64,000 nucleotides of DNA from Isoetes taiwanensis (taxonomy: Eukaryota; Streptophyta; Lycopodiopsida; Isoetales; Isoetaceae): NCBI GenBank assembly GCA_021234155.1, contig JAJEKV010000099.1:62001-126000 (forward strand), read 5' to 3'. Within the stretch, counting starts at the first letter, position 1. The number at the start of each line of letters is the position of its first letter. Position numbers and translations under genes: made by a program. Below the pieces are notes generated by a model, which was given only the letters and a program-made list of their open reading frames with translations, did not search any database and was not told the origin of the DNA. Positions 1-41,799 of the stretch are shown piece after piece.

Positions 1-769
1 TACCACTCCAAACTTCTTCTGGAATTTTATCTGGTCTCGCGGATGTGGGAATTCGATTTCGCACATAACAAGCTGTGTTCACTGCTTCGGCCCAAAGAGA
101 GAGAGATAAACCAGATAACCACAACATACTCCGTGCTGCTTCAACCAATGTTCTATTCTTACGTTCTGCAACTCCATTTTGTGGAGGTGTACCTAGACAT
201 GTATATTCACATTTGATTCCATGAGAAGCACAAAACTCCTGGAACTCTCTTGACATGTACTCACCACCACGATCAGATCTCAAACATTTGATCTTTTTTC
301 CAATCAAGTTCTCTGCCCATGCTTTATATTGCTTGAAGACTCCAAAAACTTCATCCTTTGTGCTCAGGAAATAACATTTGCATTTCCTGCTAAAATCATC
401 AATGAAAGTTACGAAGTATAGCTTTCTATTCAAAGAAGAAACCTGCATGGGTCCAACAACATCAGAATGAACAAGCTCCAATACTTCACTAGTTTTTCTT
501 TCAGAGTCTTTGAAAGGCAAAACATGCATCTTTCCAAGCATGCATCCTGAACAAACACCCATCTTAGTTTCATGCCCACAACTAAGATCTGCTACTAATT
601 GATTCTTCATCATATGTTGGATCGTGGCCACATTCAAATGTGCCAATCTACGATGCCAAAGTTCAAGTTGAGAATCAGGAGGTTTTGCTACAAGACTCAA
701 CAACTTCTCTTGGTCAGAATCAACCAAGATTTCATATAAGTTAACTCGACGTTCAAATTGAAGAACCAT
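1..769 (-). CDS. copia integrase, 3' part of ORF outside window
   Basis: About 256 codons are open from the ATG at 769 to the window edge. Early in the frame comes a pre-integrase zinc site: LWHRRLAHLN supplies the histidines and CSGCMLGK the cysteines. The catalytic core follows, with first Asp in VHSDVVGP, second Asp in RSDRGGEY and Glu in GVAERKNR, so the D,D,E triad is intact. Integrase joins retrotransposon cDNA to host DNA. An in-frame TAG lies just upstream of the ATG. In the ancestral element this was part of one polyprotein; it was split from the protease frame by the 19-bp duplication at 774-811. Confidence 0.88.
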   Translation of the reverse strand, partial: MVLQFERRVNLYEILVDSDQEKLLSLVAKPPDSQLELWHRRLAHLNVATIQHMMKNQLVADLSCGHETKMGVCSGCMLGKMHVLPFKDSERKTSEVLELVHSDVVGPMQVSSLNRKLYFVTFIDDFSRKCKCYFLSTKDEVFGVFKQYKAWAENLIGKKIKCLRSDRGGEYMSREFQEFCASHGIKCEYTCLGTPPQNGVAERKNRTLVEAARSMLWLSGLSLSLWAEAVNTACYVRNRIPTSARPDKIPEEVWSG

Positions 770-773
770 CTTC

Positions 774-811
774 TAATCTAGATTGAAGATTCCAATCTAG
801 ATTGAAGATTC
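774..811. repeat. 19-bp tandem duplication
   Basis: Copies 774-792 and 793-811 differ only at their first base. Nineteen is not a multiple of three, so the duplication shifts the copia frame between protease and integrase. Confidence 0.9.
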
Positions 812-1021
812 TACAACATTCACTGTCAAACAACACTCGATGTCCTGTGTCGCAAATCTTTGCCACTGATACAAGATTAGTTATCAAATCACGTACCAAT
901 AAAGCATCAAAAAAATGCAAAACTTTTCCATTTGACAAAGGGATTCGTGCATCTCCTACTCCACCTACAATCTTCTCATCACTATCTCCAACTCTCACCA
1001 TAGTTGAAGTGTTCTGCAACT

Positions 1022-1071
1022 TATCAAACCAAGCACGAGATGAAAATATCAAACAAAGCACGAGATGAAAA
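1022..1071. repeat. 25-bp tandem duplication
   Basis: Copies 1022-1046 and 1047-1071 differ at one base (1030 versus 1055). The extra 25 bases shift the copia protease frame and repeat the SSRA-FD coding block. Confidence 0.92.
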
Positions 1072-1356
1072 CATATTGTTTGTTGCACCAGAATCAATGC
1101 ACAAATGACTCCTACTATATCTATCAGCAACCTCCATAGCTTTCAAACCAATCTCTTCTTTATTTTCATTTTTTATATCACCTGAGAATGCAATGTTTGT
1201 TGCACTACTTGCTGGAGCAATATCATTCACATTTTGGCTCTTGTGCTCAGCTGACAATCTCCTCAAATAAGCTTTTCTTTGTCTACAAAATCTTCGTATG
1301 TGACCCAACTTATGGCAATAGTTACACTCGACATTGGCAAATCTCCCATCATCATG

Positions 1357-2016
1357 TCAACGTCTTCCACGACCATTACCATCTTCTTGTGTGGTACCTC
1401 TAATTGTACCTACACCTCCTCGGCCACCACGACCACGTCCACGATAAACATAACCACAACCTCTTCCACGTCCACAGCCACGTATTGCAAGAGCCACTTC
1501 ATTAGAATTACTGCTATACCCTGCAGCTTGTTGTGTCTCAAGCTCAGCCCTAATGGAACTACACGCTTCTACAAAATTACCTTTATAAAGTGTCCTTACA
1601 GACATCTTTAAAGGATCAAGTCTTTGAGGAAAAGCTTTTATGAAAGCTATTACTTGAACCTCTTGCGTCTTAGCTTGGCCTGCAGCAGCAAACTTTGCAA
1701 ATATCTCATTGAAAGCTACAATGAGTTTTTCCACGTCTTCTCCTTCCTTATACTTCAAAGTATCTAACTTTGCCTCTAAAGCAGCAAGCTCTGCAGAGGT
1801 TAATTGTCCATTCTTTGCTTCTAATGCCTCCCAAAGATCATGTGCAGATGTGAAAGAAGTTGGTGAAGATGATGAAGATATAGAACTACTTCCCGGTAAC
1901 TGCATTAATACACCATTAGTGATAACATTTAAAAGAAATGCTATCGCCCTACGATAAGAGTTTCCCCTAAGGAAATATTTTACGTGGGTAACTTTAGAAC
2001 ACCTGGCGAATTTCAA
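1357..2016 (-). CDS. copia Gag (UBN2-type), N-terminus eroded
   Basis: The 219-codon frame matches the plant copia Gag fold: AHDLWEALEAKNG near residue 60, then the helix-rich VEKLIVAFNEIFAKFA, then FPQRLDPLKMSVRTLY. A Gly/Arg-rich tail (GRGRGRGGRGG) precedes the zinc knuckle, which lies in another frame. Gag forms the virus-like particle that packages element RNA. The frame opens on TTG, with no good ATG, and the first 30 residues do not match the usual LNGxNYxxW start, so the N-terminus is probably lost. Confidence 0.82.
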   Translation of the reverse strand: MKFARCSKVTHVKYFLRGNSYRRAIAFLLNVITNGVLMQLPGSSSISSSSSPTSFTSAHDLWEALEAKNGQLTSAELAALEAKLDTLKYKEGEDVEKLIVAFNEIFAKFAAAGQAKTQEVQVIAFIKAFPQRLDPLKMSVRTLYKGNFVEACSSIRAELETQQAAGYSSNSNEVALAIRGCGRGRGCGYVYRGRGRGGRGGVGTIRGTTQEDGNGRGRR

Positions 2017-2118
2017 TTTTGAAGGTTAGGAAATAGAGGCGATTATATATTTTTCTACACATTTTGACATAGTATTAAAGGCGATTCTTTTATTAGCAAA
2101 ATGGAAAGTGTTTCTAAG

Positions 2119-2238
2119 GGACGTGATGATATGTTTGTCGATGGAGAAGGCATTGATTCTTTGATGTCTCATTTCTAAGCGATGGGATGACATGTTTGCT
2201 GCAAGAGAAGGCATTGATTTTTTGATGTCTCATTTTTT
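2119..2238. repeat. Imperfect tandem repeat, about 60 bp, two copies
   Basis: Both units contain AGAAGGCATTGATT followed by TTTGATGTCTCATTT. The second copy has drifted at several bases. No gene is associated. Confidence 0.75.
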
Positions 2239-2640
2239 TATATTTCTTATTTGTAATTTGACACAATTTATAATTCTTATTCGTAATTGGACACGACAAA
2301 GCTCTATGTAAAATGGATTATTTCCCAATAAGGCAACTCATTCACACGAAAAGCCTTATGATTCTTTCTTGCAACTTGTTCTTAGCCAGACAAACATTTT
2401 CATGATGTTATTCTTTACATGCCAAAGAACTATATTAACTCAAGAACCTTGAACGCTTGTCACCATTCTAATTCATTTGAACTTTTGATATATGATGTTT
2501 TAGAAAGTTTAAACAAATTTTGAAGTTCAAATAACAAAAAGTATGACAAGGGAACTGCCAGGCCATTACTACCATATGTCAAAATGGTGATTTCAGGGGC
2601 GGGAACAAGCTACAAATTATAACGGAGATAGCCACAGAAG
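2239..2640. other. AT-rich spacer, nothing recognised
   Basis: No coding signal or repeat boundary was seen between the repeat on the left and the telo-box promoter on the right. Confidence 0.5.
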
Positions 2641-2654
2641 GGGCAAACTTATCT

Positions 2655-2800
2655 TCCTTTATTATAAAGTTTTAGTGTATGTCGTGCATAAAACCCTAAA
2701 ACTTTCGACGGCCCAGATTTGATGAAATCAATGGAAGAGATGACGCCACGTAAAATTCTAGGGTTTTTTTTGGCTAGGGTTAGCGAGGGCACCTTCGAGC
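2655..2800 (+). promoter_or_regulatory. Telo-box / site II-like promoter of the small gene at 3159
   Basis: A TATA-like ATTATAAAG lies near 2660. A telo-box AAACCCTA is at 2691-2698, a GGCCCA (reverse of site II TGGGCC) near 2710, and a reversed telo-box CTAGGGTTT near 2758. In plants telo-boxes and site II elements together mark promoters of ribosomal, translation and mitochondrial biogenesis genes. The order and spacing relative to the ATG at 3159 fit a core promoter with a roughly 400-base leader. The role is inferred. Confidence 0.5.
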
Positions 2801-2844
2801 TAGGGCGGCAGTAGCACCTTCGAGCTGCTAGCTCCTCCTCCAGT

Positions 2845-3244
2845 AGCTGCCCTTGCATTTTTAAGTGATCTGTGCATCCGGCTTTAGAAGGGCATCCGAT
2901 CAAGAAGGCGCCCATTTCTTCTTCTTTTCGCATCCTCAAAATGAGTCTCAACGGAAGTGCAGAAGCAAATTCTCATGGAGGCCACAAACACCATCGCTTC
3001 AAACCCTTCTACCGCCTCCAAGCAGCCTAGAAGTTTTCCTTCGTCTTCCCAAGCTGTTCAGAAGCTGCCCTTGCATTTTTAAGTGATCTGTGCATCCGGC
3101 TTTAGAAGGGCATCCGATCAAGAAGGCGCCCATTTCTTCTTCTTTTCGCATCCTCAAAATGAGTCTCAACGGAAGTGCAGAAGCAAATTCTCATGGAGGC
3201 CACAACACCATCGCTTCAAACCCTTCTACCGCCTCCAAGCAGCC
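2845..3244. repeat. Roughly 182-bp direct duplication of leader and first-exon start
   Basis: The segment 2845 to about 3027 recurs at 3063 to about 3244, an offset of 218 bases. Each copy contains the same ATG context (2941 and 3159). The left copy has one extra A in a run of A (near 2987), which shifts its frame, so only the right copy leads cleanly into the splice donor at 3290. Confidence 0.9.
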
Positions 3245-3603
3245 CAGACCGGCCTCTCAGCCTGTTGATAATCACTTTGTCTCCCGCAGGTAAGTTTTTC
3301 TAGGGTTTAATGTTCATTAAGCATGCATTTAACTTCTGTTTTGCTCAGGTTTTTCTTCTTTGTTCAATTGCATAAATGTTCTTTAAGGCATCTGGGATTA
3401 TTAACTTGATTACTTGCTTGAAGAAAATGGCATGTCTCCCTACCGTTCTTTGCAGGAAAAGAGGTATCTAAAGACCTGTACATCTTTATGCCTTTGTTTG
3501 CAGGTACTACATTGTTCCTATGTCAATAGGTGGAGGAGAATGGCTTCTTTTTTTACATCTATTACATTTTGTTCTTCCCAAAGATTTTGTCAAGAAGCGG
3601 TAA
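3159..3603 (+). CDS. Small two-exon gene, 76 residues, unknown function
   Basis: Exon 1 is 3159-3289 and ends CGCAG before a consensus GTAAGT donor. The intron is 3290-3503 and ends TTTGTTTGCAG. Exon 2 is 3504-3603 and ends in TAA. Joining keeps the frame and gives 76 residues. The first 44 are hydrophilic and rich in Ser, Asn and Pro. The last 32 begin YYIVPMSIGGGEW and continue into a hydrophobic Leu-rich stretch that could be a membrane anchor or buried helix, ending in FVKKR. No family was recognised. The telo-box promoter and clean splice signals argue for a real gene. Further exons could exist if exon 2 has an internal donor. Confidence 0.5.
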
Positions 3604-3729
3604 ATTTGATGAGCTATAGAGGACCTTTTAGTGGCCTATAGAGAAGCTGCGAGAGACCTTTCGGTGGCTTACGGGACGGGCTTACGGGGGCGGTTTGCGA
3701 AAGCCCTTCAAACCGCATTAGCGGTACTA

Positions 3730-4329
3730 ACCATGATCGGGGATAGGTTGCATGCGTATGAAATTATTTTTTAGGGCGTATAAAGTTCAAAATCACGTAT
3801 TTTTGGGAAAATACGTATTTTCATTATTTTATACTTCGGCCCGGAAAAAAAATTTGGCGTAAAGCGAAACCATACGTTTTAAACTACAGCTTGGCTTTCG
3901 GCGTAGCGAAACCTTGATTTAAAATTGCTGGCGAAAATTCAAAAAAAAAAAAGCGAAACCTTGTTTAAACTGCGTTAGGCGAAGCGAAAACAGCCAGCCG
4001 AAACTAATTTTTTTTTTTTTTTTTCGGCGTAAGCGAAACCTTCCGGTTTAAACTACGCGAAAAAAGTTCAGCGTAAAGCGAAGGGGAAAGGTTTAAAAAA
4101 AAAAATTTAAGTTTGGCGTAAGCAAACTGAAGGTTTACTGCTTCTACGCTGAAAAAAGTTTCGCGTAAGTTTAAATAGAAGGTTTAAACTACAGCGAAAT
4201 TTTTTCGATTTGGAAATTTTTTGGACGTATTTTTGGCGTATTAAGCGTCAAATTTGTGCCGTATCAAGCGAAAAATACGTGACACGTATAAAAGCGTTAT
4301 CTGAGATTGAACCTATCCCCGACCATGAT
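3730..4329. mobile_element. hAT-type MITE with 8-bp target duplication
   Basis: The element is 3738-4321 (584 bp). Its ends are perfect 12-bp inverted repeats, CGGGGATAGGTT on the left and the reverse complement on the right. ACCATGAT directly flanks it at 3730-3737 and 4322-4329, an 8-bp target duplication as made by hAT transposases. The interior encodes nothing and is built from A/T runs plus repeated AGCGAAACC (3863, 3905, 3952, 4032) and TTTAAACT words. It is a non-autonomous element; its transposase source is unknown. Confidence 0.88.
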
Positions 4330-5047
4330 AATGAATTATATCATCTCATTTGATTATGCCATGACACGAAGAACTCGTTGAGAAATTTAAGCTTCTATTT
4401 TCCATTTTCCTTTATGAATTAAAAGCAATTACATCTATCTCTTTTGCCTTTGTCATTGCGATTGCTAGACCTTTCTAATAAAGTAATACATTTGCTTCTT
4501 TTGCCCTTTATAGCAGTTTAATTGACCATCTATTTATGGAAATTAAGGCCCTTCACAATATTTTTTAGAGTAGTATTAGGCGATTCGGTTTGGCGATTTG
4601 GTGACCAATCGACGCATTGAATCATCGTACTATGCTATTTATATTTCTAATATTTTCCCGACTTATAATTAACGGTGATGCGAGTTATACGCTAATTTTC
4701 CAAATCATCCTTTGAGCGGATGTAGAGGCCACGAACAATGCGGGAGCACGCGGTTTATTTCTCCGCCACCTCTGAGAATAAGCTCAGTCTTGGTTTAATC
4801 ATACTTTAACCATTTCTTTTTTTGCTTTTTTGGAGCTAAGGAAACCAGAATACCTCCAGTTAATGAAACAAGGCTCCAAACCCAATGAAATGGGTATCTA
4901 ACCCAAAGGCTTTATTTGCCCAAAGTGTAACATTTTTGTTATGCATAAGCAAACATTCCAGTGCATATTATATATCAACTCATGTTATTCCAATGTTCCT
5001 ATCATGCTCAAGCATGTAGCTGAGCCAAATGTCTATTCAGCACTCAC
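4330..5047. other. AT-rich spacer, nothing recognised
   Basis: No convincing coding frame, splice pattern or repeat boundary was found. Confidence 0.5.
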
Positions 5048-5137
5048 GATGAAAGAGACTATATTATTGCTTCAAGGCATTAATATAAAAATGATGAAAG
5101 AGACTATATTATTGCTTCAAGGCATTAATATAAAAAT
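5048..5137. repeat. 45-bp perfect tandem duplication
   Basis: Copies 5048-5092 and 5093-5137 are identical, each beginning GATGAAAGAGACTATATTAT. The length is a multiple of three, and the surrounding frame stays open through both. Confidence 0.93.
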
Positions 5138-5330
5138 GTCTGTGGATTCTGTTACAAGTCCTATAACATATGATTTTTTATTTAAAGTTTCTTGCTGGAG
5201 TTGTGCCTGTCTGTATTATGTTGGAGTTTTTAGTTCTTGAGCTAATTATGAATCATTTTTATTTTACAATGATCGATTATTCACACTTTTGGAACTTGAC
5301 AGTCTCTAGGAACAATAACAATCATGGAGC

Positions 5331-5591
5331 TTGCCATTTCTGTACTGTGTTTTCCATCAACCATATACCAATGAAGTTTTCAAGGCATTGTGGTGTTCAG
5401 GGAAGGCTGTTGAAGATAGACAAGTCATTATGGAAAAGAAGCAAAGGGTTTTTCAACGCACACGATTTTTCACAATTGCATTAGACCTACAATCACAGAT
5501 GAAAAGAACAGGAGCCACGGTTGAAGAAGCAAAATATATAAGGCTCTTACTATTCTTCCTAGATATTAACAGCTTAATGATTAGATGGTAA
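5331..5591 (+). CDS. Unidentified open frame, possible exon
   Basis: This frame of 86 codons includes LWCSGKAVEDRQVIMEKKQ and MKRTGATVEEAKYI, a charged helix-like composition that looks protein-like rather than random. It could be a later exon of the small gene upstream or a fossil exon. No family was recognised, and no clean acceptor-donor pair was established. Confidence 0.2.
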   Translation: MPFLYCVFHQPYTNEVFKALWCSGKAVEDRQVIMEKKQRVFQRTRFFTIALDLQSQMKRTGATVEEAKYIRLLLFFLDINSLMIRW

Positions 5592-6031
5592 TTCACATGA
5601 TGATGTTAAGTGATCTTGGAATTGTAGAGTTGGAAATGTTTCTCTAAATTGTTATGTCTAGGTTTTACTTCTTACAATGATATCTTAGTTCAAGTACATA
5701 AAAATCCATCAAATCTTCATTTCTATGACACTAAATGCATCAATATATAATGCTAAAATAGTAATACTAAAATGCCTCCCCTATGCATGTCAAACACAAT
5801 GCGAAGCTTAGTATAATTATGTGGATGTTGTAGCTTAGTTGTTGTTGAAAGTAGTATGAATAAAAAGTTATAGGTTGAAGACAAAACGTAACTGGAGGTT
5901 AAGTCTACTAAAGAAACAACCCCGACCTAAGCCAACAACTTTAAGGGTGGAATGTTGGTTCTAGGTTTTGCACGCATAAAGTAAATCATTTGTAGGTTCT
6001 CGGCTTATGCCCAATAACGCGTCGGGCACCA
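5592..6031. other. AT-rich spacer, nothing recognised
   Basis: No coding or structural signal was seen. Confidence 0.5.
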
Positions 6032-6261
6032 TAACCATGAACATATAAAATGTCAAATACACACAACATACATCTACAAGTTCATCATTAACAAATCAAC
6101 GACGTCGGGCACCATAACTATGAAGATATAAAATGTCAAATGCACATATCATACATCTATAGGTTCATCATTGACATATCTTCAACCTAACTATGAAGAT
6201 ATAAAATGTCAAATGCACATATCATACATCTATAGGTTCATCATTGACATATCTTCAACCT
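6032..6261. repeat. 73-bp tandem repeat, two exact copies and one diverged
   Basis: Copies 6116-6188 and 6189-6261 are essentially identical (AACTATGAAGATATAAAATG and onward). A third, diverged copy precedes them at about 6032-6103. The phrase GTCGGGCACCATAAC occurs before two of the copies. Confidence 0.85.
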
Positions 6262-6779
6262 GAGCAAGTAGATCACCTCTATCTCTATTTCATCCAATCC
6301 ATTTGGGCTAAGAAAGCCTGCTAGCAGGCAAGGTCCAAATAGCTAACTTATAAATCTAACAACCCTAGCCCATCAACGATGGGCACCATAACTAGTTGCT
6401 CTTGAGAAGATAGTATTCATAGTTCTGATAGAGACAATATCTACTCGTGTACATACAAATAGTTTAGCTATGATCTGGAGCTTTTGTCGGCCTTAAACTG
6501 CACAATACATATTTAGCACAGCCCATGAAGATCTGGCATGTGCTGCAATCATCTGAAATTATTTGAAAGTCCCCAAATAAAGTTGGCTAATTAAGTAGAT
6601 AAAAAAGGAGTCATGAAATGTGTCCTAAGCATATTTCATCACTTGTTAAACTCAGCATGGGAATTGCTGATTTTGGTGGCTTTGACTATATTATCTATAG
6701 AATTCGCAGGATCAACATAGCTCAATGGCACTCACAAATTTTATAATAGCTCTTTATCGGAGTTTATCGGAGTTTATCG

Positions 6780-7228
6780 GGGTCCCACAGGCTACAGATT
6801 GAGACAGGTAGATGGGAGCGCCCAAGAATTGCCATGAAGCGAGACTATGTACTGTTGCCGATTCTGTGTTATTGAAGATGAAAGCCATACTCTTCTGAGT
6901 TGCCCTGCTTTTGAGATAGTCCGGAATCATTTTTCGACCTTAGCATTCCATTCCACGCTTCCACAACTTCTCAGCACACCATCTGTGCATGACTTGGCAT
7001 TATATATACTTGAGGTTCTAGATAAACGTCTGCAATTACTGAGCCCTCAGTAGTCATTATCTAAGCTTGTCTAGTAGCATCATTACTGCAAAGGTTTTTC
7101 CCTTGAAAACCTTTCGAGGCAGGGGTTTTTTAATCCTAGTAGTAATGATTGTACTAGCCCATTGTATGGGTCCCATGACCTATTGGTCTCCGTGGACGTT
7201 AAAAAAACTATTCTATTCTATTCTATTT
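6780..7228 (+). mobile_element. LINE 3' end: RT C-terminal zinc site, 3' UTR hairpin and TTCTA tail
   Basis: The frame ending at 7053 contains CCRFCVIEDESHTLLSCPAF, the Cys/His zinc site at the C-terminus of plant LINE reverse transcriptases. A 3' UTR follows with a 9-bp hairpin (AAAGGTTTT at 7090-7098 pairing with 7106-7114). Next come the phrase CCTATTGGTCTCCGTGGACG and a terminal TTCTA repeat at 7210-7227. Short tandem tails replace poly(A) in some plant LINE families. The 5' part is missing, as is usual after incomplete reverse transcription. Confidence 0.72.
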
Positions 7229-7820
7229 TTCAACTTCTGGAGGAATTCTATGATCCCAAATTTTAGATGTCGAAATCTGCAAGTTATACAGAAAAGTCAA
7301 TTAAGTTTATCACACAACCAAACGAAGGGCAATATTGAATAGGTATCAATTGAACCTTGTTTGAAGCACATATATTGATAAATATTTTCTACTCATTGCT
7401 ATTTTTTGTTTTCATACAGAAAAAGACTGAGGTTTGATGGCCACTGGCCTCATTAGGATCAGAAGATCCAAACAACTTAAGACCAATCTTTGAATCTTCT
7501 TCTATTACGAGTAGCTAGCAGCAATTGCAATCCAAACAATACATCAAAGTACTAGAATCTTACATAAATAATGGATGGAAATGAACTAAATTTACTTCTA
7601 ATTCTGAGTCATGAGACTCTGCACCTTCATTCCTCGCCAGTTCGTAGGATTTTAGCCCTGGCATTAGGTCTTGGGATCCCTAGCTGGTAGATTCAAGACT
7701 ATAATTGGGTCTAGTTTAAGAAGTGTAAGATAGGAGACTACACATATATATCTAAACCCATCATTTACTCATTAGTATCCAGCTAAATAGAGAAGAAGAC
7801 AAAATTCCAATTGATTTAAA
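7229..7820. other. Unique spacer between LINE and LTR element
   Basis: No gene or repeat was recognised. The last bases AATTTG are the left copy of the LTR element's target site. Confidence 0.5.
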
Positions 7821-7826
7821 AATTTG

Positions 7827-9385
7827 TGTGACGTTCCAGCATAATATACGGTATGAATACGTATATTATACTGACACGTCACTAGTACATGTCGACTCAG
7901 ACGACATGTACACGGCGACCGTAAAGGGTAGTACCCTAGGGTACGACCTTGTGAACCATTATATTGCACATGTTAAAGCAACATGTGAATATAATCCCTT
8001 TTTGCCACGTGGCAATGATCCATTGACCAAAAGGGACCAGCCCTAAATTCATGGGGATAAAGGGGCATAAACCCTAAAAGGGAAACCCTTTCAGTTCTCA
8101 GCCCCTGAGTCTCGGATTGAAGCAGCAGAGGATGCATTTCCGCCTGAACGGGAGCATAGAAGTCAGATCTCCCAGGTTGCAGCTCGATCCAAGATCAGCA
8201 GACTCGAGATCAGCAGCATGGACGCTTTCAGAGGAGTGGGAGCCAGCCAAGATGCGGGTGGGTGGTTGATTCAATAGGTAGATCCGAGTTATCAGGCCTC
8301 TTTCAGTAGGTTTAGCATCCATTCTTATCTATAGGCGACCCCTACAGCCTAAGAATGATAGACACTAACAAAGGAACCTAACCATGTATGATTAGGTAGA
8401 TTAGAATAGATGTATTCTATTATTTTCAGTTCTGTTGTGATGATGTTTTGACATTATATGCGCCACTCTTGTGTATTGAGAAGGGGGGTAGAGACCCAGA
8501 GCCCAAGTAGTTGTATGATCCTAGTTTTAGCCCATTAATTCCCAATTAATGCGGCCTGTGCATAAGAGCCCGCCTGGCTGTGGGTGGCGGAGCTAGACCG
8601 GCTGACAAGGGAGGGCTTGTCTAATCACGGTTGATCCGGCCGGGCGGCGGCGAGGCGGCGGTGAGCTAGGCCTAATACCCGGGCGCTGCGTGAGGCAGGG
8701 TATGGGCTCGACACTCGTGGGGTGATGCGTCACCTTCCAGTGAGTTGAAGTCGAATACGAGCAGTGGCTCTCTAGCTCGCCTGTGATTGGCATGAACCTC
8801 CTGGAGGGGAGTGATCTCCTCCTGCCTCATCGGGACTGGGGAGATGCAACCCAGTAGTAGTAGCCCCTCTGGCTATTCACCCGGCAGGCTACGGTCAGGC
8901 TCCAATACTTTTCAGCCTATCTGCAAAGTATGCACAGGAGGGGCGGATGGAGTGGACTACCCAACGACCATGTTCCTATGCCGCCAAAATCCATTTGCCA
9001 TGAATTACATGCGCATTGCTATCTGGAGACCCCAAGCCGTCAGTCTTTCCCCATGAGTCTGAGCCTGGGTAGGTTTTCCCCATGTTATGTTGATGTACTG
9101 ATGTGTTGTTGCAGCTACTGTGATATGGTGGACCACCCTTCGAGGTGGGTATGTTATTGTTGATTGATGTCATGTGCTCATGTTTTGTTTACGCTTCCGC
9201 AGCTAGGTCGATCCCGAGGGAGACGGGATGAATGACACGTCCATTCTTCCCCGTCGGGTTCTTGGCCACCATCAAGGGCCCGATGTTAGGTGGACGGCCT
9301 CATGTCAGCGAGCAGATGCTGATTTGAGGGATGATCTCCAGTTTGTATACGATCAGGGCATCGTATATGAGCTGGGGCCGTCACA
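7827..9385 (+). repeat. 5' LTR (1559 bp)
   Basis: It begins TGTGACG and ends CGTCACA, a perfect TGTGAC/GTCACA terminal inversion with TG...CA ends. Long blocks are shared with the 3' LTR, for example TTATATTGCACATGTTAAAG and GGTAGATCCGAG. Confidence 0.9.
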
Positions 9386-9386
9386 A

Positions 9387-9398
9387 TGGTATCAGAGC
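9387..9398 (+). other. Primer binding site for initiator tRNA-Met
   Basis: TGGTATCAGAGC complements the 3' end of plant initiator tRNA-Met. It begins one base after the 5' LTR, where minus-strand cDNA synthesis starts. Confidence 0.93.
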
Positions 9399-9640
9399 TC
9401 TGATCTTGGCAGACCAGGATCGAGCACTGACCGAAACCCTATAGGAACTAACTCATCTAGACATTCAGTCTTGGAGGTAAAAGCCCAAGCACAAACCTCG
9501 AGTAGCGGGAAAATTTTTCTTCCCGGGGTAGAGTTAGTAATTATCTAGGATTAGGATAATTAGAGAACATAGGTAAGATAGAACAAACAGACGAAAATCA
9601 CTTAAGAGAGCCTACTAAATTTCAAGCACTTTAGGCCAAT

Positions 9641-9711
9641 GACTCCAAGAGTGCGCCAGGAGCATGTTAGGTTCAGACCTAATGGCCCTCTCGCGCACTC
9701 TTAGAGTAGTC
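9641..9711 (+). other. Leader hairpin copy 1
   Basis: The outer stem pairs AAGAGTGCGC with GCGCACTCTT, extended by ACTC/GAGT across one C-A mismatch. An inner stem TTAGGT/ACCTAA (9667-9682) closes a TCAG loop. Confidence 0.85.
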
Positions 9712-9857
9712 ACCCCATACGAACCCTAGAACTTGGCCTTAGGAACTCCAAATGATAAAATAAAAGATGAAATCCCAATTAAAAAGCTCGAAATAGCTAG
9801 AATTATATGTTAAAACATCAAAAAAACATTAAGTACAAGTCACTTTTGGAACAATGC

Positions 9858-9921
9858 CTCCAAGAGTGCGCCAGAGTATAGTTAGGCCCCGACCTAACCC
9901 CCTCCTCGCGCACTCTTAGAG
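9858..9921 (+). other. Leader hairpin copy 2
   Basis: The outer stem is CTCCAAGAGTGCGC (9858-9871) with GCGCACTCTTAGAG (9908-9921). The inner stem is GTTAGG/CCTAAC. The arms match copy 1, while the loop-side sequence and the spacer between copies differ. Confidence 0.85.
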
Positions 9922-10068
9922 TCATCCCTAAAAGTGACCTCAAAAATTGATCATAACTTACTCAAATGGTAAAGGTAATAATAGAATCTTGTTTAAAATG
10001 ATTAAATTAGTGGGAAACGCATGTTAAATTGTGTAAATTGGATAAGTTTAGAGCGGAAAGGGACAACA

Positions 10069-10134
10069 CCTCTAAGGGTGCGCCAGGGCATAGTTAGGTC
10101 TGGACCTAATACCCTCCTCGCGCAGGCTTAGAGG
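10069..10134 (+). other. Leader hairpin copy 3
   Basis: CCTCTAAGGGTGCGC (10069-10083) pairs with GCGCAGGCTTAGAGG (10120-10134), with a two-base GG/GG mismatch. The position that is a C-A mismatch in the other copies is a T-A pair here. The inner stem is lengthened to TTAGGTC/GACCTAA. Confidence 0.82.
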
Positions 10135-10463
10135 GGTTCGAGAGAAAATAGTTGAAGAAGACCTAGCTTCGATTCGAGATATGGAGGATTTCATCAACAA
10201 ACCAAGAAATTAAGCAAGGCAGAGATGGAGGTCGTGCAACACTTGAAGACTCATTGGCGTGCACGCCTCCATAAAAACACAGAGAGACATGAGGCTGGCG
10301 AAAGTACATCAAGAGGACGAGATAAATAGAACACAAGCTGCTTTTGTAACTAACAGGTTTATATGTGATGTATGAAAATTTGAATAATAAAGATATATAG
10401 TCGTTTAAAAATGTGTATTCATTAGGTACGATATCACGGAGCAAATGCGATATTTTGACCAAC

Positions 10464-10534
10464 GACTCCAAGAGTCTTGCTTGAGCATAGTTAGGTCCCA
10501 ACCTAACCCCCTCCTCAGCAAGACTCTTAGAGTC
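10464..10534 (+). other. Leader hairpin copy 4, both arms changed together
   Basis: GACTCCAAGAGTCTTGCT (10464-10481) pairs with AGCAAGACTCTTAGAGTC (10517-10534) with one mismatch. Compared with the other copies, the segment TGCGC became CTTGCT on the left arm and its complement on the right arm, so pairing is kept. The inner stem is GTTAGGT/ACCTAAC with a CCCA loop. Confidence 0.88.
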
Positions 10535-10677
10535 ATCCGACCAAGCTGGGGCCTTGATTAGCCCTACTTGCTCCAAACGTAGTAATAAACAAAGAAACTT
10601 GCATTTAGGAAGAAAACTAATAGGAATTTACCCTTCCCAGCGGATTCTTGGCATCCATTAGGCAGAGATAGGCCAAT

Positions 10678-10743
10678 GACTCCAAGAGTGCGCCAGAGGC
10701 CACTTAGGTCCCAACCTAACACCCCCCTCGCGCACTCTTAGAG
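10678..10743 (+). other. Leader hairpin copy 5
   Basis: GACTCCAAGAGTGCGC (10678-10693) pairs with GCGCACTCTTAGAG (10730-10743). The inner stem is TTAGGT/ACCTAA around CCCA. Its arms are the same as copy 1, about 1 kb away. Confidence 0.85.
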
Positions 10744-10759
10744 GCGTCTGATTTTTCAA

Positions 10760-13700
10760 ACCCCATAACTTGAGCTACAGAGCTCCAAATCGCTTGAAAT
10801 TTGTTGCAATAGGACCGTTAGACAGCCTAGAATCCATTTATGACCTCAAATTAGGCTAGAAATGTCAAACCCCAGCTCAAAATGACCAAAATGGATTAAA
10901 CCCTTGAATTGTTTTTCCAAACTGTGGTTTGTTTGTAAATAGAAGCATACCCCAGTAGTACCTCACAAGTATTACCTCGGCCCAAAGCTGATGCCTTACT
11001 CCAAGGTAGAAGTGCCCAAGAACACCCCTTTGTTATAGTCATCAACCTCAGCATAGCAACCGAAGTCCAACTGTTGGTACATCACCTCTGCTCATGCCAA
11101 AGGCATAAACCTTGACCTAATTTTGTGCCCTTCTAATAGAGTTTGACCTATACAGCCGCCACATTGACACTCCCTATTGCCAGGATACCTAGAAAGGAGC
11201 TAGAGTCTAGAGCTGCCCAAGTCACTCCATGTGTAGAGATTGGACTCCCCCAAACCAACTTTGCTAGGACCTTAGAGTATGCCTCAAACATCATGGAGGT
11301 TTTGCAAAACAACCCTCATGTCATACCATACCACGCCCTAATGTCCATAGACTTGGAGATTATAGACATGTCTCGATAATCTTTGCTTTCGAGCCATCTT
11401 GCTTGCTTATAGAGCCCAAAATGTTGTAGGAGAGCCCTTCAAGTAGACCTTTAGACTCTAGGATATCTGGCGTTATTTTGAAGGGCGGGCCCAGAGCCAC
11501 GTGAAGAGCTAGAGGGCAACTCCTTGAAGACATCAAGGTCCCAGCCGATGTCAGACAAGATAAGGAGAGGAGACCGAAAAGGCAGACCCAAGAGAGGGAA
11601 GCACAACGACAAACACCTCAACCGACAAAAGAGTAGAACAGGACACCACCGGCCTATCATCAATCTTCATCAAATGAGAAGAATATTCGGTAACCAACCC
11701 CATCAAGAATCTTCTAGATGTCAACCTCCCGGCTACCACGTCTACGAGCTCACATCAGAAAGATGATCTCGACGCCCTCACCAGCTCGACGCACATGAGT
11801 TTCAAATAGAAGAACGCAAGGCAGCAAGATACACTTAGACAGCAATGTCACGTTAGCATCACGAGCTAGGGCCAGAGGGCATAATCTTCCGTCGAGGAGA
11901 GAAGGCATGGCGACACAGGAGTGTATAGAAAGCAAAGGAAGGATGACTTTACTACGTCAGCCAAGGAGTGCGAGACTCGAATGGATAGGATCCAAGGGAA
12001 GGAGGAGACAACCTAGCCAGCAGGTACAAATCACGCAAAGGCAACCAGAAGAAGCTAGGGTAGGTGCAATGGAGATGACCACACTTCCAAGCACAGGAGA
12101 GGCACCTCGGAATGAAGCAAAGCCCAATAAAAGCGGGCGCACTTTCGGGGAATTCAACCTACGGAGGAATGACAACGCGCCCTCTGACGACCACGACATC
12201 TCCGAGCCGAAAACATTCAAGAACGTCCGAACGCGCAACAGCCGGTGATCAAACCATCAATGGCACCAAGACATCGGCAACCTTGCAACGAGACACCGTG
12301 ATCTGAGGGGCGTTGGCGGTCACCGCATTCCTTACGGCGGACATACACATTAAGGAGGAGCATCTTTTTCAAGGGATCACATCGACGAACACTCTTCGCA
12401 ACTTGGGGTGACGAGCTCGGATCAGACATGAAGCTCAAAAAATAGTAGCAGCATCTCAAGGAATCTCGGAGTCAACCAGAACGAAGAAGATGTAGCAAAA
12501 CCGAAGGATCAAACGCGATAGGAGCAAGGGAAACCCTAAAGGAGTGTAAACATTTAAGTAGATCTTCGTAGTTGTTTTGAAAAAGTGGATGAATTAAAAT
12601 CCCAATGTAAATGCGTATATGTCTATTGTATATCTCAGGTGCTCACAGATATAGTGTAGAAACATGAGTTTAAAGTCATGTTTTACGGATTTAGCGCTTA
12701 GATCAGAAAGCTCCTTCACTTCGACTACCAAATGAGGAAGCAAGGAAGCACAACTATAGCCCAAGATCAAAATGGAAGAGCAAGTACGCGCGCGAAAGCT
12801 TGACGAGCAAGCAAACCTTCGACTTCAAACACTTCGGGAAGTGCCCTCAAGTAGAAGACCGCTCGTCCACCCAATGTTAGAATAAGAGACAACACCGGTC
12901 ATGTCAAGATCATCGGCATCTCGCACGGGACATCGTCGGGCCGCACCACTACCTCTTGTGGCAGCGGCAACACTTGACGAACTTATGACACGAGTGGCCT
13001 CAACAATAGAAGGAGGAACGACCCGACATCAACGAGCCAACTAGGAAGGCAACATCTCGACAACCATAATTCCACCTTGTGGTAATATAGGGTGATGCGC
13101 TATGACACGTGTATTAGATGGAGAGGCACTTACGAAAGGCACTGCGACGAGGAGATATGCCTTCAACAACTAGGTGATGGCTTCGTCAGATACTCCTACC
13201 AGTAATTAGAAGAAAAGAAGCCGATCGTATCTCCGACATGAGGGACATCAAACGCCCAAGGTAGAAGCACTCGACACCTTAACGACAAGGATAGCAACTG
13301 AAGCACCTTCGGCAAAAAGAGAGTTCAAGATAATAGCGGGGCTATTCAGCGACAAGACTATATCTAAGGCAGGTACTTCTTCAATTCAAAGGGTCAAAGG
13401 CTGCGCCAAATATAAGGATCCATCACCCGGACAATATAGCCGCCAGGAGGAGAGCCATGAAGCTTTACTTGACAGAGAGACCGACATGCATAGAGGGACA
13501 AAGGTCAGGAACTGAAAGCTGGAGAAGTGTTAGCAACCGACTTCTTCCAAGAGCTTCCTAGAGGCAACAAAGAGGATCAAGCCAGCGGGCACAATCAAAA
13601 ACCACTTGGGTACCTCAAGACAAGGCGGTATGGCGAGAGCGTGACAGCGTCAAGCCAGGTGTCGAGGGGATCGGCAAAGGAAGATTAGGCTTCGATGGAG

Positions 13701-16700
13701 AACCAACTAGGTGAGGCAAGAAGCGTGAGCCGATGACTTGCCACTGGCGGACTGCATGCAACGGGTGAACCCAGGATCGGCGATTCAAGAACAAGCTGCG
13801 AGAGAACAACTCGGAGGTATAGCCAAAGGAAGCGTACGGCCTCAGGCGCGCCAAATAGCTTCAGGAAGTATCATGAGAGGAAACAATTACAACCCGGCAG
13901 TCGGGGAAAGCGGGCCAATGTCGAGCATCGCTGACCAGCACATCTTTAGTTAGAATGTGATGCAAAGTGTTGTGCCATAAGCGAACAAACATCGAGAGGG
14001 CCCAAGCATATCAACAAAGTTACCACCGGAGTCTGGTGACGTACAAATAGGAGGATATAGATGCGTCAACACCATGTACCACGGGGAGGAACACGATGGT
14101 ACAAAAGGGTAGGTGTGCAACTTCGAGCGGAGGCACAAGGGGACATATGCTCCTATTAGTAATTGTAATTATATAAAGCTATATGCTTTGCATGTATAGT
14201 TCCCTTGTTATTTCTTCCCTCCCATAGCGTAACAAATCAAGCGAAGAGATGTCGAGGCAATTTGCGGTGAAGCAATCAGCATCTTCAGCACTCTTGAGAC
14301 ATACGATAGCGACAGAGAGGACTGCGATGTGTGGGCATTCGTGGAGTCCCGAAACAATATCGGGATATAGAGTAGATCCTTCGGCTGCCAAGACAAGAGT
14401 TCAAGATGAAGATGATATTTTTTCAAGCGAAGCGCCATGAGCTTTTAGCGGCATGGAAGATTTCAAGTGACCAACTACACCATCAAAGGCCGACAGGAGG
14501 CTTCTAAGCGAACAAAGTCAACCTCTACATCAAAGAACCGTCAAGACTGAAGTATCTCGAGAGCAACTTCGGGCATTGCCTTGCAGCTTCAAGCGGGCAA
14601 AGGTGGATGAGCTTCCTAGCTCGAGGGGATCTGAACCATGGGGCCTAGTAGATTAAATGTATAGTGATAACATCCATATTGGGATTAGAAGGCGCTTCCG
14701 GATATTCTCATTGAAAGGATTGCCCCAATATTGAGCCTAGCGTCCAAAAAGTTGGGAAGGAAAGCGCATAGGAGTGACTAAGCTTCTACCGCGATTGTTG
14801 CTGAGGACATCCAGCGTGTGAAATCACTTGGTGAGATCACCTGCGCTAAGAAGGAATCATTACTAGGATGGTGTTGACCATGTATAAATCTAGTACCTCC
14901 AAAAGAGAATAATCAGCACAGAAAGAAGAAAAGAAGTAATCTAACAAATTAAGGTAACTTCACGATGACATCAATTAGATTGGTAGGAATATTCAAGAGT
15001 TTAAATAACTAAGAAAGGGAAATCTCTAGAATATAAAAGAATAATACATGTAAAATTACATTTAAAATAAAATTATAGTAATCAAATAGTCTTTTGAGAC
15101 AAAGGAATTGTCATAATATTAAAACCTTGTGCTTTGGAACTCATTAACTATATTGAAACAAATGATAACATAATAGGCATCCATCTTAGATGTGGTTATA
15201 TATATATTAGCTAAGGCTAGTAAAGTAATCGCTAAGTAAGGGGAGAGAATAAATATGGCGTTGTGTACAAGCATACATTGAAGGGTGCAGGACCATTTTT
15301 CTTTCGAAGAAAGTGGGAGGAGCTCAATCTCGAGATGAGCGATGCTTGCATCGAATTGACCGATAAGTAGAATAGAGTTCACTCAGGCAATGGCGAAGCC
15401 CGAATAGGCGTGGAAATAGATAGATACCTTAGGCTGGGGGGGCCTTCAGCGTGCAAAAGGCTGGCGTAGTATGCGCTACACCAATGAGTGGAGTGCGCTA
15501 TAGGAGCAATGCAACGACCAGTCATCTCAAATTACTCCGCGCCCGGCTCAATGGTGGATCGTTCTACCAGCCTTAGGTAAGGTGTGCATGTATTATAAGC
15601 TTTAATGTGTCTTATAGATAAGTTAAATATAGATCCTAATAGCTTTGCACTTAGAATTGATGTCGCATTATATGTATCATACGGAAATAAGTTAAATAAC
15701 AACGATAATGTGAGTTAGCATGTTAATTAATCCTTGTAGAGGATGCAATTCCTTCCAAGGATAGCTATATGACCTGGGGTCCTTATAAATATAAATAGAA
15801 AATAAGTGGATATACTTAAAGCATCTTAGGGATATACTTCCAAAGTGTCACAAGGCCAAGGAAGAGAATAAGAAGCATCTAATTCTTGTGTATGATAACT
15901 AAAACCTTCTCTATGTAAACAATAGGTCTAAAATGGGGTTATTGTTTTAGATAATGTGATCTAAAAGTAATTAAATATTGTAAGCTTAGAGTAAATATAA
16001 TTGTACTATCCCGGAAGTAATGCATCAGATGCTATGATACTTGTTAATTCATAAATATTACGTTAAGGTAATTATATTGTCCACATGCATTAAAGGGCGG
16101 CAAAAATGGAAACAGGGCATGTCGATTTGTGTTTAGATTAATTTCATGTGTAGTTAAGTATAATCTACATACAGCTTTATGGTGGGGTTGCATGCGTTAC
16201 TCTGCGATGATGAGATTACTCACGGTGATCTCACAGAGCGTGGTGTAATGTCCAATGTAGGCATGGTAAGCGTTTCATGGATGAGTGGAAGGTAGATTAG
16301 AAAGTCATACGTTTCCCGCAGGAGGGTAGGCGACCTCGAAGAAAGGAGTCATTCAGGTGCATTGATAGGAAAAGCACCTCTAGCCCTTATATGCTTTGAT
16401 AGGGAGGAATGGCCTTCGCCCTTATCTTGGGAAGGACCTATCCTCCCATGTTGAACTAGAGTGTAGGCATGGCGGCATATAGGCATATAGAGGCATCCAG
16501 CCATAATGGAAGATTCACCTCTTCCTGCAGCCCAGGAGATTAGCCATGCACATCCATGTGGAGTATTAGAATTGGTCACCATATAGCCAAAATTTTTATT
16601 AATAATTAAAATGGTTATAGCGTAGTGACTGACACAACGGGCCAATAAGGGCGAGGAGGTCGAGCCTCACGAGACTTGCAACACAAGTTTTTGTTATAAT

Positions 16701-17290
16701 GTGTTGCAAGGGATAGAAAGGTACCCCTTAGAAGTGTAAATTTTGTATGAAATTGATAGAACTTTGATAAACTTAAATATTGTATTAAGTAGAGGCAATA
16801 ATTACCTTTAAGGATTAAGTTATGAAGTCATAAGTTAATTGGATAATAAATGATACTGATAATGTCTTAAAAACGTACCTTAGAAGTAGTATAATAATTA
16901 AGATAGTAAGTGTGTAATTATAGATATTGTAAAATTATCTGGGATTTTAAGGTCGCGAAGACTTGCAACTTCTAAATTTTGTTGAATGTGCAAGGAATGA
17001 GAATACTGCTTAAATAATAATTGTATATGAGGAGTGTTAAATTGTGATAAACTAAATGTTGTGATACTTGAGAAACTAATAAGTACCTTGTTTTAATAGA
17101 AGTTCTGATTTGACAAGTTATTTGATAGCGTATTAAGTAATGTGGTTAAAATATTGCCTTAAGAGTAATCTTAATAGTATTAATGCATTATAATAGTAGC
17201 CATTGTATGCATCAAGCAAGTTGGTTGCGAAGACGGGAAGAGCCCAAGGTGGGGAGACTCGATCTTTGCTTGAGACTGACTTATCAATTC
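10760..17290 (+). other. Interior of the LTR element, no recognised coding
   Basis: From about 10976 to 14640 the DNA is richer in G and C and contains short open frames, such as an Arg/Lys-rich 80-codon frame at 11524 and a 113-codon frame at 11907. None shows a retroviral motif. From about 14650 to 17290 it is AT-rich and closed in all frames. The GC-rich part may be a decayed Gag or foreign insert. Confidence 0.55.
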
Positions 17291-17306
17291 AAGGTAAAGG
17301 GGAGAA
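17291..17306 (+). other. Polypurine tract
   Basis: AAGGTAAAGGGGAGAA sits directly before the 3' LTR start TGTGGCG, the usual place of the plus-strand primer. Confidence 0.8.
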
Positions 17307-18857
17307 TGTGGCGTTCGGCATAATGTCACGGTATGAATCGTATATTATCTTGACCGTCACTAGTACGTAATGCATTCGGGCGACATGTACCGCAGCGGCC
17401 GTAAGAGGTAGTACCCACAGAGAATTGACAGCAATGAACCATTATATTGCACATGTTAAAGCAACATGTGAATATAATCCCTTTTTACTGCGTGGCAATG
17501 ACCCATTGACCAAAAGGACCAGCCTAGAATTCGTGGGGATAAAGGCATAAACCTAAAAGGGAAACGCACCGGTTCTCGGCCGAGTCTTTCCGGTTAAAGC
17601 GGCGAAGGATGCATTTCCGCTGAGCGGGAACATAGAAGTCAGATCTCGGGTTACCTTTCGATCGAAGATCAATGAACTTCGAGGTCCCGGCGGCATGGGC
17701 GGCACTGAGAGAGGGTAGAGCCAGCAAGATCTTGTGGTGGTGGATTGGTCCAATAGGTAGATCCGAGGATTATCGAGGCCTGCTGATAGAGTTTAGCATC
17801 CATTCTCTTATCTATAAGCGACCCTCTGACTGGGAATGATGAACAGCACAAAGGAACCTAACCAGCTAGCCATGATTAGGTAGATTAGAATAGGTATTCT
17901 ATTATTTTGATTACATTTGTGATGATGTTTTGACATTATATCTCGCGCCCTCTTGTGTATTGAGAAGGGGGTAGAGACCCGAGCCCAAGTAGTTGTATGA
18001 TCCTAGTTTTACCCATTAATTCCCAGTGTCACGGCACGTACATAAACGCCTTTGTTTGTGGGTGAGCTGAAGCCAGAGTGACAAGGGAGGGCTTGTCTAA
18101 TCCAGTTGATCAGTGGCGTAACGGCAGTAGGGGCGGTATGACTGAGCCCTAATACCACGGCGCTAGCGTGAGGCGAGGTATGGGCTCGACACTGGAATGG
18201 GGTGATCGTCACCTTCGGTGAGTTGAAGTGAATGACGATGGCTCTCTAGCTACTTGTGATTGGCATGAACCTCACGGAGGTGATCTCCTCTGCCTCATGG
18301 GGCCCGGGAGATGCAACCGGTAGTAGTAGCCCCTCACGGCTATTCACGGCGAGCTACGGTGGGAGCTCCGATAGCACCGGCCCTATCGCAAAGTAATACG
18401 GGAGGGCGGATGGAGTGGACTACCCAGAGCCATGTTCCTATACCCGGTAAATCCATTTTGCCTTAAGTGCATGCGCATTGCTATCACACGGAACCCCAAG
18501 CGTCGATCTTTCCCCATGAGTCTGAGCTTTGCAGGTAAGAGTTTTTCCCCATGTTATATTTGATGTCTTGATGTGTTGTTGCGCATTTCTTGTGATATGG
18601 TGGACCACCCGCCCGAGGTGGGTATGTTGTGTTGATTGATGTCATGTGCTCATGTTTTGTTTGCGGCCAGGCTAGGTGCGATCCCAAAGGGAGGCGGGAT
18701 GAATAACCGTCCATTCTTCCCAAAAATTGAGTTCTTAGCCACCATAAGGGCGATGTTAGGTGGAGCGGCCTCATGTCGGCTGGCAGTCTTTGATTTGAGG
18801 ATGATCTCCGGTTGCTCTGATCGAGGGCATAAATTATATGAGGTACAGAGACGTCTA
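17307..18857 (+). repeat. 3' LTR (about 1551 bp)
   Basis: It aligns along its length with 7827-9385 but with many small differences. Many 5' LTR CAG words are CGG here, and runs such as GGGG or CCC differ in length. The terminal CACA is altered to CTA, which explains the loss of the canonical CA end. ATTTG of the target site follows at 18858. Confidence 0.87.
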
Positions 18858-18862
18858 ATTTG

Positions 18863-41329: not shown

Positions 41330-41330
41330 T

Positions 41331-41590
41331 GTCCTTCCGACCTCAAAAGCCTGACGAACACTGTCCTTCCGACCTCAAAAGCTTGAGAACACTGATCTGA
41401 ATGATCTCAATACGATTCGCTTGAGCATTTCTTGACCTATTAATGCTGTTTCCAGAACCTTTTGTATTGATGCTGTTTCCAGAACCTGGGCAATGCCCTT
41501 TTCTTGCATATAACCTTTTCGTTCCCTTTTTCCCGTCAATTACTTTTCTAGAAATATAACCTTTTCGTTTCCTTTTTTTGCCGTCAATTT
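41331..41590. repeat. Three tandem duplications in the CPL4-like upstream flank
   Basis: GTCCTTCCGACCTCAAAAGC lies at 41331 and 41363 (offset 32). ATGCTGTTTCCAGAACCT is at 41443 and 41470 (offset 27). ATAACCTTTTCGTT is at 41510 and 41556 (offset 46). All lie within 260 bases of the ATG, probably in the promoter and leader. Confidence 0.9.
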
Positions 41591-41799
41591 TGTTCCTTGG
41601 CATTATAGGGAATTAATGCGCATATTGTTCTTGCAAGATGATTCCAAGCAAATGTAAGCTGAAGCATGGATGAGATTTTCTTCGGGTCTACCATACCTCG
41701 AGGCAAAAATCATGAATATCATCCACTATCAATATCTACTTAGTATTACCAAATCCGGACCTCTGATAGCCATTGTCTCAGCCTATTAACTTTTTAGTG

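Follow-up and report, generated by a model that had tools for sequence, protein, structure and literature searches.

The window, a stretch of 64,000 nucleotides of Isoetes taiwanensis DNA, holds one LTR element at 7827-18857 (Table 1), the leader of which bears five hairpins directly after the primer-binding site. Elsewhere in the window, an open frame uniting a NIF-type phosphatase with a BRCT domain and an adjoining PPR-repeat frame were noted at 40070-41371 (minus strand) and 41770-42558 (plus strand), as were other retrotransposon pieces at 1357-2025 (minus), 46113-46613 (plus) and 55715-56050 (minus), namely copia-type gag, an integrase core below cut-off and a reverse transcriptase.

Table 1. 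Coordinates of the element, its hairpins and related features; positions refer to the window unless a locus handle (L) precedes them.
Feature	Position	Strand	Remarks
Target-site duplication ATTTG, 5' side	7822..7826	+	read from sequence
5' LTR, TGTGACG...CGTCACA	7827..9385	+	
Primer-binding site TGGTATCAGAGC	9387..9398	+	
Hairpin 1	9636..9712	+	fold z -6.4; in covariance model
Stretch with spacers (hairpins 2-4 inside)	9713..10672	+	in-register spacer homology traces
Hairpin 2	9851..9927	+	fold z -7.6; in covariance model
Hairpin 3, outer stem Y-type (other four X-type)	10063..10139	+	fold z -3.9; in covariance model
Scar of deleted H3-like ORF, last ~40 codons left, decayed	10212..10335	+	collinearity with C4
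Hairpin 4, GCGC/GCGC stem segment reads CTTGCT/AGCAAG	10459..10538	+	fold z -10.0
Hairpin 5	10673..10749	+	fold z -5.9; in covariance model
Interior without counterpart in gag-pol relative C4	10892..17306	+	
Polypurine tract preceding 3' LTR	17296..17306	+	read from sequence
3' LTR	17307..18857	+	
Target-site duplication ATTTG, 3' side	18858..18862	+	read from sequence
H3-like ORF, 394 codons, H3-tail start, long charged linker	L076:991-2172	+	
Other H3-like ORF loci	L078, L079, L080; C4 = L046-L049		
C4 Gag, protease, RT, integrase zinc-domain pieces, downstream of H3-like ORF	L068:1171-4375		frames broken

The window element and its hairpins

LTRs, a primer-binding site (which we take to be of the initiator-methionine tRNA type), a polypurine tract and a target-site duplication are all present, as in a LARD-like element, and no gag-pol domains were detected, a result limited by assembly errors. 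The ten ORF pieces scanned, out of 22 ORFs of at least 70 amino acids in the interior, matched no Pfam family at cut-off; one of the ten comes from 10166-10627. The original prediction of an 11-kb LTR element with a primer site and no proteins of its own agrees with the LTRs, primer-binding site and target-site duplication found, and with the lack of a Pfam match in these ten pieces.

Successive hairpins start 215, 212, 396 and 214 nt apart. Folded as single strands they reach -31.9 to -37.8 kcal/mol, which none of 200 shuffles equalled, and the fold z-scores of all five (-3.9 to -10, beside -0.8 to +1.5 in five spacer controls) bear out the five two-tier hairpins that had been predicted after the primer site. 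With up to three mismatches, the 17-base 5' arm has seven matches in the window, all within the array, where 0.06 would be expected. In a global fold of the leader, copies 1 and 3 are unpaired locally (6 and 0 of 64 bases).

Nowhere in the window does an Rfam match attain the gathering score, and the array was therefore rejected as a member of a known Rfam family; a relaxed scan of 9390-10900 returned four sub-threshold matches, with no ribozymes among them. The Rfam scans of the window likewise revealed no hammerhead ribozyme, on which ground we set aside a retrozyme. Short peptides were also discounted: an ATG-to-TAG frame is found in copies 1, 2 and 5, and ATG is, by eye, absent from Y-type hairpins. 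Viral sequence collections yielded no match to the array, and four bacterial matches from prokaryotic collections were taken as chance stems.

Hairpins of different units of the window element are 66-83% identical, and spacers among units of one element at most 52% (ungapped). For the 120 nt following copies 1 and 2, 1 and 5, and 2 and 4, the best ungapped identity (0.52, 0.44 and 0.42) nevertheless falls near offset 0, the mean over all offsets being 0.28-0.31, and only 0, 0 and 1 of 200 shuffles did as well; the remaining seven of the ten flank pairs are at chance level. This in-register homology argues for an ancient tandem duplication of a unit of ~213 nt. Apparent decayed echoes of 10750-10900, downstream of hairpin 5 (ccataacttgagctacagagctccaaat), were seen in other spacers by eye only.

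The element family and its histone H3-like gene

The genome searched comprised 1,658,258,908 bases in 1110 contigs; the assembly is given as 1658.30 Mb, in 204 scaffolds and 909 contigs, in its published description (PMC8566536). With the array as query, the best 40 of 1463 candidates were all of array length at 91-100% identity, 37 of them covering the whole query, and five further matches were short; as the array was itself the query, its presence in these 40 copies is no rate. At least 65 nt are present at all five hairpin places in 39 of the 40 aligned copies, L038 alone lacking most of hairpin 1, and a few hairpins elsewhere are partly deleted. In 24 of the 40 copies the aligned match takes in the primer-binding site. 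The original prediction had named as contrary evidence an array private to one copy; 39 other copies, L038 included, have it.

The palindrome TTAGGTN4ACCTAA occurs at 1767 places in the genome (reversed control, 287). From the first 15 places listed we obtained 12 more array-bearing elements (C4, C9, C11, C12, C12b, C16, C16b, C20, C24, C24b, C35 and C44), C28, which is L026, and C27 being left out; at C1 the covariance model found no hairpin. Inside blocks of hairpins, the step from one to the next is mostly 207-216 nt and ranges from 184 to 223, apart from a single double step of 438.

In C4, C16, C20, C24 and C35 the gap between hairpin blocks is ~1.2 kb longer and encodes a histone H3-like protein, the ORF having been read in all five relatives with such a gap; the hairpin step across it is 1612-1638 nt. 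Three copies match PF00125 (E 7e-23 for the C4 fragment, 2e-22 and 3e-22), and the C4 fragment matches H3.3 from the PDB at E 3e-21. When the genome was searched with the protein, the best 150 of 9547 candidates all matched, at 54-100% identity and many with long open frames. Array hairpins accompany the ORF at all nine further loci inspected among these matches, which were picked without reference to the hairpins; eight have three upstream and two downstream, and the ninth, L075, has the two downstream hairpins only, within the stretch read. The ORF is uninterrupted over 394 codons at four of the nine loci, starting MARTKQTARK (twice), MARRKQTARK and MARTKHTARK. That of C4 starts MARTKQTARK, while C16, C20 and C35 retain MARTKQTA; neither RTKQ nor an H3-tail start was seen in C24. 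The N-terminal likeness to the H3 tail is one of letters. The H3 histone fold is present, and canonical H3 length and tail are not; with 394 amino acids and a long linker between tail-like start and fold, the product is accordingly termed H3-like and not canonical H3.

For the four intact ORFs compared with one another, dN/dS lies at 0.10-0.22 when the whole frame is counted and at 0.03-0.14 for the fold. Between C4 and C20 it is 0.022 at a dS of 0.97 over 91 fold codons, a value that somewhat overstates the similarity, as ten codons (1-4 and 32-37) are omitted and 32-37 differ in C20. With frame-shifted stretches kept, the values are 0.10 (C4-C16), 0.23 (C4-C35) and 0.75 (C16-C35). The H3-like ORF is under purifying selection.

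Its position invites the reading that the flanking hairpins act in RNA to govern its translation or processing. At L076 the ORF begins 216 nt past hairpin 3 and hairpin 4 begins 134 nt past its stop, and stable 5' hairpins would impede scanning; the window's subfamily, however, is without the ORF and keeps five hairpins in 40 copies (one minus most of hairpin 1), and we regard such control as quite improbable.

The relative C4 clarifies the family's wider anatomy. It matches Retrotrans_gag (4e-16), Ty3_capsid (8e-11), RVP_2 (7e-8), RVT_1 (1e-18) and Integrase_H2C2 (6e-7); RNase H gave a weak match only (0.034, below cut-off), the integrase core was not found in the pieces tried, and the frames are broken. 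The RT piece (L068:2074-3123) precedes the integrase zinc domain (L068:4196-4375), the order typical of Ty3/gypsy, and C4 is a Ty3/gypsy LTR retrotransposon. Its two LTR parts are 87.7% alike and resemble the window LTRs; neither an LTR start motif nor a target-site duplication was found in C4. Since C4 closes, after its gag-pol pieces, with an LTR that resembles the one at its 5' end, the H3-like gene lies inside the element.

C4 and the window element align over the LTR and leader, through hairpin 3 to 10217, and again at 10212-10891, the extra 1.2 kb of C4 between these blocks being mostly the H3-like ORF. Past 10891 nothing common to the window and the gag-pol stretch of C4 was detectable, and that 7-kb stretch had no blastn match in the window element at E 1e-5. 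The trace left by the ORF is weak in the window by tblastn with the H3-like protein (E 0.64); in the sister copy C12 it covers amino acids 185-224 at E 4e-6. The window element deleted the H3-like ORF and kept its hairpins, which accounts for the 396-nt step. The original prediction saw in this double gap between copies 3 and 4 the loss of one copy; an H3-like ORF stands there in all five long-gap relatives, which rules out a lost sixth hairpin. A deleted ORF had thus been mistaken for a lost hairpin, and the H3-like gene missed. Given gag-pol pieces between window-like LTRs in one H3-bearing relative, the window element is a non-autonomous relative that keeps the LTR, primer-binding site and array.

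Probable assembly error, conservation and pairing

Differences between copies must be weighed against the quality of the assembly, which according to its published description was built from ONT v9.4.1 reads and polished with racon and pilon (PMC8566536). Over the 40 leader copies, departures from the majority amount to 0.131 at CAG/CTG sites, against 0.027 beyond 20 nt of them, and to 0.093 at CG; isolated substitutions make up 602 of 1888 variant cells. Close to CG/CHG sites (within 3 nt) the divergence of the two window LTRs is 14.4%; elsewhere it is 2.2%. Replacements at these sites are short, complex and unlike between copies. Such variation fits basecalling errors linked to methylation better than it fits decay, real hypermutation being a less probable cause. 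With differences clustered at CG/CHG sites, LTR ages are inflated and frames are possibly broken by error.

The altered stem of copy 4 is a case in point. In the 40 copies, hairpin 4 has GCGC in both arms in 16, a changed 3' arm only in 14, a changed 5' arm only in three and changes in both in seven, where 5.3 would be expected if the arms were independent. We rejected compensatory evolution on account of this near-independence; CTTGCT/AGCAAG is probably a sequencing or assembly error, since both arms offer the basecaller the same sequence and the both-arm count is close to independence. Like replacements occur in single arms of other hairpins. Against error, both-arm changes in hairpins 1 and 2 (two and three) exceed the 0.7 and 0.5 expected under independence. 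Stem changes that look compensatory, and likewise LTR ages, can thus be products of methylation-linked error when they are taken from ONT assemblies of plants.

The contention that spacers have diverged and hairpins have not holds between the units of one element; between elements it fails except in the stem cores. In the young set of 40 copies, hairpin pi (0.074, inflated by CG/CHG errors) exceeds spacer pi (0.046), and in comparisons of diverged elements neither whole hairpins nor spacers are consistently the more alike, now one and now the other being slightly ahead. Between X and Y lineages, by contrast, identity is 0.931 in the stem cores (0.958 in their inner arms), 0.796 in the spacers and 0.633 in other hairpin bases, a contrast of core and spacer that is partly built in, the cores having been picked after the conserved columns were viewed. 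These figures derive from six X and three Y elements, C4 (misaligned), C9 and C12 being left out; with these three included, core, spacer and remainder stand at 0.909, 0.794 and 0.622, and with CG/CHG surroundings masked at 0.935, 0.835 and 0.660. Stems no more conserved than spacers, which the original prediction had reckoned as damaging, are thus what whole hairpins display in the 40 copies and not what stem cores display across lineages.

These comparisons bear on the possibility that the array is a functionless relic of a ~213-nt tandem repeat, the cores of which stay similar through template switches or conversion while the element is reverse-transcribed. The number of hairpin units indeed varies between elements, and whole hairpins do not surpass spacers in conservation at orthologous positions; yet the cores are conserved while the hairpin bases next to them are more variable than the spacers, with CG/CHG masked too. 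Further difficulty comes from the arms. Outer arms are 0.80/0.82 identical within an element at different positions and 0.66/0.75 between X and Y at the same position, whereas inner parts are 0.74 identical within an element and 0.84 when X and Y are compared position by position; 48 of 52 hairpins were compared (C4-2, C4-3, C11-5 and C12-5 dropped), in groups without C11 and with labels of merged hairpins assigned by us. Within a lineage, then, the outer stems changed for the most part in concert, and the inner parts stayed true to their position in the array. An exception is the third hairpin in the window's subfamily, which is Y-type within an X-type element. Homogenised outer arms around position-specific inner parts are hard to obtain by conversion, in which the inner part should travel along, and we consider a neutral relic rather improbable.

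Pairing was tallied at 19 positions in the 38 hairpins, of 46, that have a length of exactly 77. Ten positions are Watson-Crick in at least 37. Pair 7-72 varies in a compensatory manner (C-G 31, A-T 2, T-A 1, other, unpaired, 4); pair 15-64 is G.T in 15, A-T in 14, G.G in seven and otherwise in two; 6-73 is non-standard in 32, and 22-57 is C.C in 36. According to these tallies covariation is weak and sequence conservation dominant. Pair 11-68, in the same 38 hairpins (L072-L080 and the window), is C.A in 19, T-A in ten, T.G in nine and C-G in none; this position is perhaps a required weak point.

With 11-68 excluded, plus-strand G.U outnumbers A.C by 28 to 9, counted as cells and not as independent events; 15 of the 28 come from pair 15-64, without which the count is 13 to 9. 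Among 70 pattern-picked hairpins it is 67 to 31, 11-68 again excluded. The excess leans towards plus-strand RNA. In each of the window's five hairpins the minus strand gives the better fold; as the tally leans the other way, minus-strand RNA was not adopted. Stems stable on both strands would suit a source of small RNAs, diced from hairpins or from duplexes between them, a role we hold to be extremely improbable given stems interrupted by internal loops and the conserved C.C mismatch, and given that no Rfam family scored above gathering.

Conservation of the cores in sequence makes binding at the DNA level the main rival to a role in RNA, if an unlikely one. In this case GTTAGGT-N4-ACCTAAC and CTCYAAG...CTTAGAG would be paired sites for a host transcription factor or chromatin protein, the factor being one of R2R3-MYB type if the palindromes are read as resembling AC elements. 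Su(Hw) sites in the leader of Drosophila gypsy bind a chromatin protein. Inner-stem arms are near-invariant in the 42 covariance-model hairpins (12 of 12 bases in 34, 11 of 12 in seven, one truncated), a count less biased than that from 48 hairpins picked by the inner motif; half-sites are spaced by 4, loop pi is 0.49, covariation is weak and coding relatives carry an H3-like gene. DNA sites, however, need neither long outer stems, nor both-arm changes at 7-72, nor the lean towards G.U, and the step of ~213 is broken across the ORF in five relatives.

Possible roles of the array

Of the roles first proposed, RNA packaging or dimerisation remains the best. That the array is a cis-acting RNA region serving either is our preferred reading, which we hold tentatively. 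The strongest argument is that the window's subfamily, without the ORF, kept the LTR, primer-binding site and hairpins, although retention of the array could stem from deletion end points alone. A second is that the array lies directly after the primer-binding site and is present in 40 copies as well as at the H3-like ORF loci. Outer stems that change element by element would fit a requirement that the stems of one RNA match one partner or each other. A DNA-binding or a sequence-specific RNA-binding protein would fit equally well, the cores being conserved in sequence with little covariation.

Predicted duplexes are stabler than two monomers in all ten combinations of window hairpins 1, 2, 3 and 5 (hairpin 4 omitted). 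Among 30 hairpins from seven elements, the mean predicted gain is -13.4 kcal/mol within an element and -10.1 between X and Y (standard deviations of 6-7), and -6.0 for spacer controls. The small difference between the first two gains speaks against the reading, as do copies 1 and 3 left unpaired in the global fold, the better folding of the minus strand and whole hairpins no more conserved than spacers.

A role in packaging or dimerisation would unfold as follows. The family is of Ty3/gypsy type, with mutually complementary repeated hairpins between the primer-binding site and gag; Gag or another element protein would recognise the hairpins, and two genomic RNAs would pair through them, leading to RNA that is packaged and reverse-transcribed. 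Coding members carry the H3-like ORF within the array (three hairpins before it and two after), followed by gag-pol in the one member read to its 3' LTR. The window's non-autonomous subfamily has deleted the H3-like ORF, has a different interior where gag-pol would stand, and keeps LTR, primer-binding site and hairpins; presumably it is mobilised in trans. Little is known of the way in which RNAs of plant retrotransposons are selected for packaging, and hairpins common to coding and non-coding subfamilies make the question testable.

Several known systems offer parallels. LARDs, found in relatives of barley, are large non-autonomous derivatives of LTR retrotransposons. As in the window element, a long LTR element without coding domains occurs in many copies and is presumed to be mobilised in trans; unlike LARDs, the window element has a leader common to H3-bearing relatives and a series of two-tier hairpins in units of ~213 nt. 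BARE2, from barley, is a copia element. It has no Gag of its own, while dimerization and packaging signals are conserved and packaging into VLPs is described (PMC3735527); the window element similarly does not make Gag itself, and the parallel in packaging or dimerisation is putative on its side. Neither a hairpin array nor a histone gene is mentioned in the part of that article at hand (PMC3735527). In the packaging and dimer-linkage leaders of HIV-1 and ALV, as described in excerpts of the literature, hairpins of the 5' leader are bound by nucleocapsid or rearrange into extended dimers; the Isoetes array differs in being made of five almost identical repeats, which an ORF splits in coding members, and its function is putative. 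The insulator of Drosophila gypsy lies in the 5' UTR, where sites for a protein recur shortly downstream of the 5' LTR. Both it and the Isoetes array are repeated near the 5' LTR, but gypsy is without palindromic hairpins and without a histone gene. No comparable retrotransposon hairpin array was found in the literature excerpts consulted.

Nor did those excerpts contain a histone H3 gene carried by an LTR retrotransposon. Histones are borne by viruses, as H4 in bracovirus and as giant-virus histones, according to a review (PMC9145170) the main text of which has no occurrence of 'retrotransposon'. These viruses and the Isoetes family are alike mobile genomes with a core-histone-type gene; the Isoetes gene differs in lying in an LTR retrotransposon and in encoding a 394-amino-acid H3-like protein with a long linker. 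That the family builds chromatin or ribonucleoprotein of its own, the protein working with or on the hairpins and compacting RNA or cDNA or marking the integrated 5' end, with the non-autonomous subfamily borrowing it in trans through the hairpins it kept, strikes us as highly doubtful; gene and hairpins may be partners or may have nothing to do with each other. An LTR retrotransposon family with a selected, multicopy histone H3-like gene would be an unexpected instance of a mobile element that brings its own chromatin protein, and this ORF, with at least 150 genomic matches, may surprise more than the hairpins.
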